Positions 28,633 through 30,358 of a DNA stretch of 64,000 nt are shown in pieces; the first letter of the stretch is position 1; each line of letters starts with the position of its first letter. The stretch is from Micromonospora sp. CP22. Lineage in GTDB: Bacteria; Actinomycetota; Actinomycetes; Mycobacteriales; Micromonosporaceae. The DNA lies in NCBI RefSeq assembly GCF_009712475.1, contig NZ_VCJO01000004.1:1-64000 (forward strand), given 5' to 3'. Below the pieces are notes generated by a model, which worked only from the letters and a program-made list of their open reading frames with translations, had not been told where the DNA came from and searched no databases. Made by a program: the position numbers and the translations under genes.

Positions 28633-29631
28633 TCAATTCCGTGCCGACAGCAGCCCGGCCAACGCCCGGTACGTACGGTTGGCCCGCACCGCCTCCCGCT
28701 GCTGCCCCGACGTCACCTCGATGTACGTCTGCGACGACGCCAACGACGCGTGCCCCAACAGCCGCATGATCTCCGCCGCCCCGGCGCCGTCCTCGGCCAA
28801 CCGAGTCGCGAACGTGTGCCGCAGCGCGTGCAGCCGCGCCCCACGCGGCACCCGGTCAGCGATCCCGGCCCGCCGATAACAGGACTCCACCAGATACTGC
28901 AGACCACCCCGGCGCAGCGGCTCACCGCGACGATCCACCAGCAGCGGCGACACCGGCCGCACCGTACGCGAACCGAACCGGCGGGCCCGACTGTCCAGAT
29001 AGCTCGCCAGCACCGCGTCCAGATCCGGCTCGACCGGCAACACCCGGGGACGCCCACCCTTACCGGTCACCTCCAGCCGCCGCTCACCGGGCCGACCACC
29101 CAGCGACCCGACCCGCAACGCCAACAACTCCGACAGGCGCAACCCCGCGCACAGCGCCAACGCCAACACCGCGACGTCCCGCTCCGGCCACGGATCCCGC
29201 TGCCGACCCTCGGCTCGCGCGGCCGAGGCGAGCAGGTGCTCCGGGGTGTCCTCGCCCCGCAACGGCTTGGGCGTCGGCAGGGGAGTGCGGGGACGCCCCA
29301 CCGCCGGCATCGGATTGCCGGGCACCACCTGCTCGGCGACCAGGAACGAGAAGAAACCGTTCCAGGTGGACCAGGCCCGACCGACGGAGCTGGCCGCCCT
29401 ACCGGCGGCGAACCGGGCGAACGCCGCCCGCATCAGCCTGGGGGACAGGGCGGTGACCGGCAGGTCGGCGAGGGACAGGGGAGGGGAGGACAGCTCGGCG
29501 GCGAGCGCGGCGAGCGCGGTCAGGTCCCGCCGGTAGGCCGCCTGGGTGTGGGGGGACGGCTTGCGGGTCGCGCGAGCCGTCAGGAACTCCTCAATCAGGA
29601 CGGCCACCGAATCGTCCTTTTTGTCATGCAT
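28633..29631 (-). CDS. Tyrosine recombinase (XerC/XerD-like) next to dif-type sites
   Basis: A 332-residue site-specific recombinase. The N-terminal SAM-like DNA-binding domain spans residues about 8-105; the catalytic domain has all six residues: Arg165 (GLRLSELLALR), Lys191 (TGKGGRP), His268 and Arg271 (HALRHTFATRL), His294 (LLGHASLASSQ) and the nucleophile Tyr303 (TYIEV). It is slightly longer than XerC/XerD (about 300). The start codon lies inside a palindromic Xer-like site (29623-29650) that also contains the likely -10 box TAATAT, so the protein may control its own promoter. A second, dif-like site is 375 bp upstream. It might be the housekeeping XerC or XerD or a dedicated one, like XerS in streptococci, whose gene sits beside its dif site. 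Confidence 0.88.
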   Translation of the reverse strand: MHDKKDDSVAVLIEEFLTARATRKPSPHTQAAYRRDLTALAALAAELSSPPLSLADLPVTALSPRLMRAAFARFAAGRAASSVGRAWSTWNGFFSFLVAEQVVPGNPMPAVGRPRTPLPTPKPLRGEDTPEHLLASAARAEGRQRDPWPERDVAVLALALCAGLRLSELLALRVGSLGGRPGERRLEVTGKGGRPRVLPVEPDLDAVLASYLDSRARRFGSRTVRPVSPLLVDRRGEPLRRGGLQYLVESCYRRAGIADRVPRGARLHALRHTFATRLAEDGAGAAEIMRLLGHASLASSQTYIEVTSGQQREAVRANRTYRALAGLLSARN

Positions 29632-29650
29632 AAGGGATATTATGCATGAA
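29623..29650. promoter_or_regulatory. Palindromic Xer-like site overlapping the recombinase start
   Basis: A 10-bp perfect inverted repeat TCATGCATAA (29624-29633) and TTATGCATGA (29640-29649) with a 6-nt spacer GGGATA. The 11-6-11 layout and the inner ATAA-N6-TTAT are those of dif sites. On the minus strand it includes TAATAT (-10) and the recombinase ATG (29631-29629). It may be a recombination site, an autoregulatory operator, or both. Confidence 0.65.
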
Positions 29651-29745
29651 TTTCGCGTTCGATGCCCGGTGGGAGGGGAGCGGTTCGGCGACTCGTTCGA
29701 GAGCACTGGCCCGGAGGCGGTGCTCGCCGAGCGTGCACCGCTCGG

Positions 29746-29937
29746 CTGGTCGTCACCGGCGCGCAGACCGGCGCACGCATCCGGACGACCCCGCACGGCG
29801 CGTTCGTCCATGGCTACGACGCCACTGGTCGGTGACGCACGGAAGGCCTGATCGCCAACGGTGCGCCGCCGACCCGGGTCATCGCCCACGCCGACCGGGA
29901 ACTTCCAGAGCGCGCCCGGCCGTGCCGGGACGGTTGA
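29746..29937 (+). pseudogene. Decayed coding fragment of unknown family
   Basis: In one frame the translation reads TGARIRTTPHGAFVHGYDATGR, then TGA (29833-29835), then TEGLIANGAPPTRVIAHADR and a stop at 29935. Third-position GC and residue composition look coding on both sides of the TGA, but no start and no upstream extension exist. A remnant cut by stop codons is the simplest reading. Confidence 0.3.
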
Positions 29938-30005
29938 CACCAGCGAGGTCACCGACCGCCCGCGAGCGGGTCCCCGAGCGGTCGGGGCAGGGCTCAATCC
30001 GGTTA

Positions 30006-30033
30006 ACTTGACATAATGCACATTATCGAATCT
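30006..30033 (-). other. Chromosomal dif-like XerCD recombination site
   Basis: Read on the minus strand, the site has a left arm AGATTCGATAA, a 6-nt centre TGTGCA and a right arm TTATGTCAAGT. As I recall the actinobacterial dif consensus, the right arm matches 11 of 11, the centre 5 of 6 and the inner half of the left arm (CGATAA) fully; the outer left arm differs. It lies in a gene-poor stretch beside a tyrosine recombinase gene. If it is the chromosomal dif, the window is at the replication terminus. Confidence 0.75.
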
Positions 30034-30358
30034 TCGTGATCCCGGCTGGAAGTCCTGGTCGAGCTGGTGCTGTCGGGCTGGTGCTGTCGGCACTTACGCG
30101 AGCCGTGGGCCGCTTTGGACCTGTCTCCCCACGCCCGCAACGGGCGGTGGATCGAGCCGCCCACGCGCAGAACTCCGTGCGCGGTCGGGTCGGCGGAGGT
30201 GCCCGATCCGCCGTGCGTACATCATGATGAACGACGCCGATCCTCTGACCTCAGGAGCCGTCGCATGGCTGAGACCTGTCTACGGCGGTGGCGGCAATCT
30301 ACGGCGGTGGCGGCATTTGCCAGGACGAGATGCGTGCCAGCAGGCAGGGAACTGACCG

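Follow-up and report, generated by a model that had tools for sequence, protein, structure and literature searches.

A third Xer-type tyrosine recombinase and a probable palindromic site of its own next to dif at the actinobacterial replication terminus

Introduction

Chromosome dimer resolution is described as the work of one site, dif, together with either XerC and XerD or one recombinase that replaces them. What, then, would a further Xer-type recombinase gene be doing close to dif, with a second Xer-type site lying over its own start codon? This question is raised by a locus of Micromonospora sp. CP22, found in a stretch of 64,000 nucleotides (contig NZ_VCJO01000004.1, positions 1 to 64,000) that is called the window throughout. 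An earlier note, made from the letters of the window, had proposed a self-regulated, terminus-located recombination module. Here, we follow the gene and both sites through related genomes.

Results

A third Xer-type recombinase gene

The recombinase gene, provisionally named XerX, lies on the minus strand of the window at 28633–29631, with its ATG at 29631 and its stop at 28633, and encodes 332 amino acids. Pfam domains PF00589 (Phage_integrase) and PF02899 (SAM-like core-binding) were found in the protein. A full-length tyrosine recombinase with six catalytic residues had been claimed; all six (R165, K191, H268, R271, H294 and Y303) were present, and none of them varied among the 23 orthologues aligned. 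With the R-K-H-R-H/W-Y set and the Phage_integrase domain, XerX is a member of the Xer-type tyrosine recombinase superfamily. Its closest protein matches came from Micromonospora and Verrucosispora, and its top PDB sequence match was XerD. The structure model (pLDDT 75, pTM 0.56) had a weak fold match (TM ~0.4), with an archaeal Xer first and a phage integrase second, and was taken as evidence for the superfamily level alone. PADLOC gave no defence-system family for XerX, and a role as a defence system was rejected on this ground.

XerX scored far under the NCBIfam cut-offs for XerC (160 bits, cut-off 335) and XerD (134 bits, cut-off 330), cut-offs which the host's own XerC (305) and XerD (315) also slightly missed. 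The XerS model gave 64 bits, with a cut-off of 267. A search for other xerC/xerD genes, suggested in the earlier note, returned one XerC-like and one XerD-like protein elsewhere in the host genome, which makes XerX a third Xer. Each of the 13 gene-bearing genomes tested had, apart from XerX, exactly two matches to XerC/D at E≤1e-60. Past Tyr303, the XerX C-terminus reads SGQQREAVRANRT and does not have the ERLR...HPRA segment common to the host XerC and XerD, so contact with FtsK, if any, would be expected to differ.

Phylogenetic placement put XerX in a separate clade, distinct from XerC and XerD and sister to plasmid recombinases. In the tree of 74 rows, 35 third-Xer rows formed one branch (96/77) and 11 plasmid rows another (99/97), and a 100/100 branch set the two jointly apart from XerC and XerD. 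The tree has an arbitrary root and a long-branch warning (E. coli rows, L004, L301); it was built without XerS, XerH, XerL or phage rows, and the partial L328 and L329 were left out. Rows of group f15 were split between two parts of the tree, so descent was not wholly tree-like. The idea that XerX stands in for XerC and XerD was rejected by the presence of both in the host and in the 13 genomes, and by the separate branch. Another Xer-like tyrosine recombinase (L004, on a very long branch) was noticed just outside the window, at G000:C43:76474-77001, ~47 kb from XerX.

The site at 30006–30033 is very probably dif

On the minus strand at 30006–30033, GATTCGATAA (XerC-arm side), the spacer TGTGCA and TTATGTCAAGTT (XerD-arm side) make up a 28-bp site that reads GATTCGATAATGTGCATTATGTCAAGTT. 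It matches the predicted dif of Frankia alni, CACGCCGATAATGCACATTATGTCAAGT, which served as seed in predicting dif sites of actinobacteria (Kono et al. 2011, PMC3025954). Our dif pattern, CGATAANNNNNATTATGTNAA, matched the window at 30008–30028 on the minus strand. It also matched 206 of the 394 genomes of the class, once in each except G424 and G455, and was unmatched in the other 188, which include all 39 genomes of group f33. In all 20 genomes placed, the dif-bearing locus lay 0.455–0.537 of the replicon away from dnaA, a position at the terminus (six replicon lengths are known only to 0.1 Mb). The Frankia match and this position make it very probable that the likely dif of the earlier note is indeed the chromosomal dif; it has the 28-bp actinobacterial consensus, a single copy and a place at the terminus. 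Just past it, at 30279–30315, there is a perfect 18-bp direct repeat of two copies with a spacing of 19.

A palindrome over the XerX start codon

The other site, TCATGCATAA-GGGATA-TTATGCATGA, had been described as a perfect 10-bp palindrome with a 6-nt spacer over the start codon, and this proved correct, its exact extent being 29624–29649. The ATG of the recombinase lies inside one of the two 10-bp arms. The 6-bp spacer (29634–29639) is asymmetric, reads TATCCC on the gene strand and is the expected exchange region.

The core ATAA-N6-TTAT occurred twice in the window, with none expected from 100 shuffles. In the whole 5.85-Mb genome it was found only in this palindrome and in the site at 30006. 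A reversed control pattern was also found twice in the 5.85-Mb genome; therefore, the 383-bp distance between the two sites, and not their number, is beyond chance. In the window, a CATAAT motif ends 7 nt ahead of the XerX ATG, so binding to the palindrome could possibly also shut off a leaderless promoter, an arrangement that is not general.

Conservation in the Micromonosporaceae

The pair of sites is kept in the family. Both were strict in 73 of 80 named Micromonosporaceae loci and had one or two mismatches in six (Actinoplanes, Paractinoplanes); the remaining locus (L079) ends at a contig edge. The palindrome covers the XerX start codon in this family. Its spacer was TATCCC in 42, TATGCC in 17 and another sequence in 20 of 79 loci. 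The interval between the sites (29650–30005 in the window) varied in length among relatives, from 277 to 1417 bp with a median of 621 in 73 loci. Among seven close relatives, the gene region was 85–93% identical; the interval was 75–82% identical in part, or unalignable. The gene folD, seen in the flanking sequence retrieved for only 27 of 80 loci, was rejected as a conserved neighbour.

All 23 genomes of the genus had exactly one TGCATAA-N6-TTATGCA site (reversed control, 0), and 22 of them have the XerX gene. In the remaining one, G084, the palindrome is present without a gene match on a contig that ends ~145 bases into the expected gene, and it was not counted as gene-less. A genome of the same family (G157) has the palindrome and dif 285 bp apart and the gene ~10 kb off. 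One genus of the family (f1 g3: G070, G105, G119, G169) had neither the XerX gene (0/4) nor the TGCATAA palindrome (0/4). Three genomes of that genus (L330, L331, L333) share a perfect palindrome of a different form, GTCAAGATGATAAT-N4-ATTATCATCTTGAC.

Besides a normal trio of gene, palindrome and dif on contig C14, G168 holds a second palindrome and a degenerate dif (~2118 and 3441, 1.3 kb apart) on the 176-kb contig C55 (L142). This pair of sites may perhaps belong to a second replicon or to an element using both.

The palindrome remains near dif in genomes where the gene is distant

With the XerX protein profile A1, the gene was detected in 45 of 200 genomes of the order (E≤1e-60) and in 33 of 394 genomes of the class (E≤1e-65). 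The XerX system is thus a minority trait, and most genomes with dif do without the gene.

In group f15, gene, palindrome and dif were together in 13 of 18 gene-bearing genomes, with the palindrome shortly upstream of the gene and dif reversed relative to the Micromonosporaceae. In the other five, the gene was 143 kb (G111), ~650 kb (G196) or ~1.08 Mb (G104) off, or on another contig (G062, G180), and the palindrome was still 335–503 bp from dif. The palindrome–dif pair was therefore kept in all 18. In group f31, a recognisable dif was present in 19 of 26 gene-bearing genomes (that of G463 with one mismatch to the pattern), and the palindrome was less than 1 kb from it in all 19. The gene was 1.7–6.9 kb from the palindrome in 15 of these and ~0.3–0.5 kb in four. 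No standard dif was recognised in the remaining seven; six of them have the palindrome, and in G477 it is only degenerate. In group f9, the gene and the palindrome are present in G008 together with a dif (up to two mismatches); another genome of that genus, G022, lacks the XerX gene and any ATAA-N6-TTAT site.

Genomes with dif and without the gene gave the reverse picture. A second ATAA-N6-TTAT site near dif was found in 0 of 30 gene-less loci from many families, in fetched flanks of up to 1.5 kb (gene-less by E≤1e-65; six loci shorter than 3,021 bases owing to contig ends). It was also absent from 10 of 11 further genomes (ten of f31 and one of f15; gene-less by E≤1e-35). Pooled, the palindrome was absent in 40 of 41 genomes with dif and without the gene; thus, the second site occurs in genomes that have the gene, be it adjacent or distant. 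The exception, G234, has a palindrome–dif pair and no gene found; it is a 470-contig assembly, and its gene-free dif contig is 4.9 kb long.

The side of dif on which the palindrome lies, relative to dif orientation, varies by lineage, while the distance stays at 0.3–1.4 kb. A kept distance with a changing side argues for selection on proximity rather than simple linkage.

Half-sites covary

Palindrome spacers were always 6 bp long and in most cases asymmetric, and other lineages carry other spacers. The two half-sites covaried across 82 distinct sites, which include at most seven plasmid rows and leave out the truncated L079. At arm positions 5, 6, 8 and 9, the observed value was reached in 0, 0, 4 and 0 of 5000 shuffles, which ignore relatedness; at position 7, the observed agreement was reached in 135 of 5000. 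No covariation was seen at positions 10–13. An example is GGATAA-N6-TTATCC in several f15 genera, with GCATAA-N6-TTATGC elsewhere. Positions 5, 6, 8 and 9 still stood out with 38 representatives, a set in which at least two Micromonosporaceae rows were mis-assigned to another palindrome. When protein columns were compared with arm position 5, none switched cleanly with the arm sequence, in a test with at least two mis-assigned Micromonosporaceae rows.

Such covariation, together with 6-bp, mostly asymmetric spacers, is as expected of a site that is bound by two copies of one recombinase and exchanges only with its own sister copy. Because the palindrome goes with dif and not with the gene, its arms covary and its spacers are always 6 bp, we read it as most likely the recombination site of XerX itself, and not primarily its operator.

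Relatives on plasmids and in phages

XerX homologues of 36–42% identity were found in 39 plasmid records: 19 of Mycobacterium, 15 of Rhodococcus, three of Mycolicibacterium and one each of Prescottella and Dietzia. The eight records that were opened were circular. A palindromic ATAA-N6-TTAT was present at most 0.7 kb upstream of the gene in seven of 11 plasmid loci examined, in five of them within ~0.1 kb. These homologues presumably resolve plasmid multimers. Since the relatives are on large plasmids and several have their own palindrome just upstream, the data suggest that XerX originated in, or shares an ancestor with, a plasmid multimer-resolution module. At a plasmid-type homologue in G130, a dif-like site was seen 1.8 kb from the ATAA-N6-TTAT palindrome.

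Against 50,697 phage records, XerX had no tblastn match at E≤1e-15, which speaks against a phage origin. The top PHROGs integrase profile gave 120 bits, below the 160 bits of the NCBIfam XerC model. As for a phage module or an IMEX (an element that integrates at dif), the interval between the sites is short and variable, but integrase profiles do match.

A second type of palindrome near dif

A different palindrome, ACCGGACAGAA-N6-TTCTGTCCGGT or close to it, was found ~370–770 bp from dif in f31 genera without the XerX gene. It has an ACAGAA-N6-TTCTGT core and arms of ~13 bp, and was near dif in seven of eight scored loci (L275–L279, L290 and L291; not L292). The pattern was present in 11 of 22 chosen genomes, with two copies in G396, and was absent genome-wide in G302. 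In a scan for palindromes with 12-bp arms around dif in the 41 gene-less loci, 6-bp spacers were not in excess (10, compared with 6–12 for other lengths); five of these ten were of the ACAGAA type. The six f31 genomes that have XerX and its palindrome without a standard dif carry both types, ~430–700 bp apart. The observations on this palindrome also cover L357–L362 and L365–L381.

In G521, the ACAGAA-type palindrome is directly ahead of the frame of another Xer-like gene. This type of gene was found in six of 16 loci with the palindrome and in one without it, in fetched stretches of 8–20 kb. The link between gene and palindrome is only a lead. G419 and G521 each have two Xer-like genes near terminus palindromes (L373, 8321–9562 and 12595–13929; L374, 8517–9920 and 9998–11155). 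The first of these genes has a palindrome-like site with a GGATAA-N6-TTATCC core inside its frame near the start (L373; imperfect in L374).

We tentatively propose that sites are paired at the terminus in several lineages of actinobacteria. XerCD would have dif, and a palindrome no more than ~1.5 kb away would serve a dedicated, additional recombinase of the Xer type. Two or more unrelated types of palindrome would take this same place in different lineages, TGCATAA-N6-TTATGCA with XerX and ACAGAA-N6-TTCTGT in genera without it. If this is true, the paired sites would mark a second terminus-recombination step, working with or beside XerCD.

Discussion

What does XerX do next to dif?

Our preferred reading, for which the comparisons incline us somewhat more to belief than to doubt, is that XerX, the third Xer, and its palindrome make up a dedicated system of the replication terminus that supplements XerCD at dif. 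XerX would bind the two palindrome arms symmetrically, as a pair, and exchange strands across the 6-bp spacer. It would act on two palindrome copies at the terminus, carried by sister chromosomes or by a chromosome dimer. It would thereby unlink or resolve chromosomes beside XerCD, which would act at dif, 0.3–1.4 kb away. Binding, catalysis, the purpose of dimer resolution and dependence on FtsK or another translocase are all predicted here from sequence comparison.

The nearest alternative gives XerX an accessory role. It would bind the palindrome and influence XerCD at dif, a few hundred bases off, through synapsis, as a topological filter or in timing. The spacing that persists across lineages although the palindrome changes side speaks for this role, as does the presence of dif next to the palindrome wherever a standard dif was recognised in the gene-bearing genomes examined. 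Neither spacing nor side is fixed here, however, unlike in known accessory sites of fixed geometry. XerX also keeps all its catalytic residues, and the asymmetric 6-bp spacers, largely alike within lineages and different between them, resemble exchange regions. We therefore hold an accessory role to be unlikely, if still worth keeping in mind. That XerX is simply the XerC or XerD of its lineage, acting at dif, would fit its top NCBIfam profile, XerC; the two separate XerC/XerD-type genes in the same genomes and the separate tree branch make this highly improbable.

A relic would need no present function at all: a past insertion at dif, of a plasmid or of an element that exploits dif, could have left a recombinase and its att site that persist by linkage, without a current chromosomal role. 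The sister branch on large plasmids and the phage integrase profiles that match XerX at up to 120 bits would suit such a history, and a review names dif as an integration site of IMEX elements (PMC5357621). A single copy kept over several families with its catalytic residues intact does not suit it, nor does the persistence of both gene and site once they have separated, nor the lack of a match in phage records at E≤1e-15; we consider a relic improbable. We give slightly less credence still to the palindrome being chiefly the operator or promoter of the gene, as the earlier note had it. In the Micromonosporaceae, where it covers the start codon and the CATAAT motif lies just ahead, self-regulation is possible; the upstream palindromes of the 13 f15 genomes and of the seven plasmid genes also agree with it. 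As a general function, an operator alone was rejected, because the palindrome stays beside dif where the gene is kilobases to ~1 Mb away (15 of 19 f31 and five of 18 f15 genomes). Thus, the proposed module stands as dif-adjacent, terminus-located and equipped with a second Xer-type site, both sites being conserved in the family. General self-regulation does not stand, because in other lineages the palindrome keeps its place beside dif at distances of tens of bases to ~1 Mb from the gene.

For the dedicated third system, the short distance from palindrome to dif may mean that XerX is coupled to dif and not independent of it, because a dimer-resolution site that works by itself could well lie farther away. 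The kept proximity could mean that a translocase serves a single narrow zone of the terminus, or that XerX co-operates directly with XerCD.

Comparison with known systems

The nearest systems in logic are XerS, XerH and XerL. XerS/difSL of streptococci and XerH/difH of epsilonproteobacteria are described in a review as alternatives to XerCD with a single recombinase whose gene adjoins its site (PMC5357621). XerL/dif of Legionellales also acts in place of XerCD, with a single recombinase, a palindromic site and a link to plasmid-borne copies (PMC9765430). XerX resembles the former two in being one tyrosine recombinase with a proposed site of its own, and XerL in having, in addition, a palindromic site and plasmid-borne kin. 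Each of the three stands in for XerCD. XerX, unlike them, occurs where XerC, XerD and dif are also present, and its site lies beside dif. XerL also belongs to another phylum and has another site. XerX is not a sole Xer, since all 13 genomes tested have the XerC and XerD types as well. The site presumed to be its own mapped to the terminus in all 20 genomes placed and is near the gene in the Micromonosporaceae and in 13 of 18 f15 genomes, but not in all lineages.

With XerCD/dif, XerX shares the superfamily, the 6-bp spacing and the TTAT core of the inner half-site. A broad classification of tyrosine recombinases places chromosomal Xer proteins in one subgroup (PMC8138268). XerX is no orthologue of XerC or XerD by the equivalog cut-offs and the separate 100/100 branch. 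Its palindrome differs from dif in that the arms are alike on both sides and, beyond TTAT, differ from both dif arms, so one protein is expected there and not two. The recombinases of large actinobacterial plasmids are homologous and share the upstream palindrome in seven of 11 loci, but form a separate sister branch.

Meaning for the actinobacterial terminus

The open-licence literature, the scope of our search (subscription papers and preprints lay outside it), yielded no description of such an arrangement of recombinase, palindrome and dif. What the comparisons bring out is a conserved additional recombinase with a probable site of its own, held next to dif across several families. XerX and its palindrome could provide an orthogonal recombinase/site pair for genetics. 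A third recombinase with a palindrome within ~1.5 kb of dif suggests a second recombination system for finishing chromosome separation, and it raises a testable question: why would one terminus require two recombination systems? The answers would bear on chromosome segregation in actinobacteria and on how plasmid resolution modules become chromosomal.
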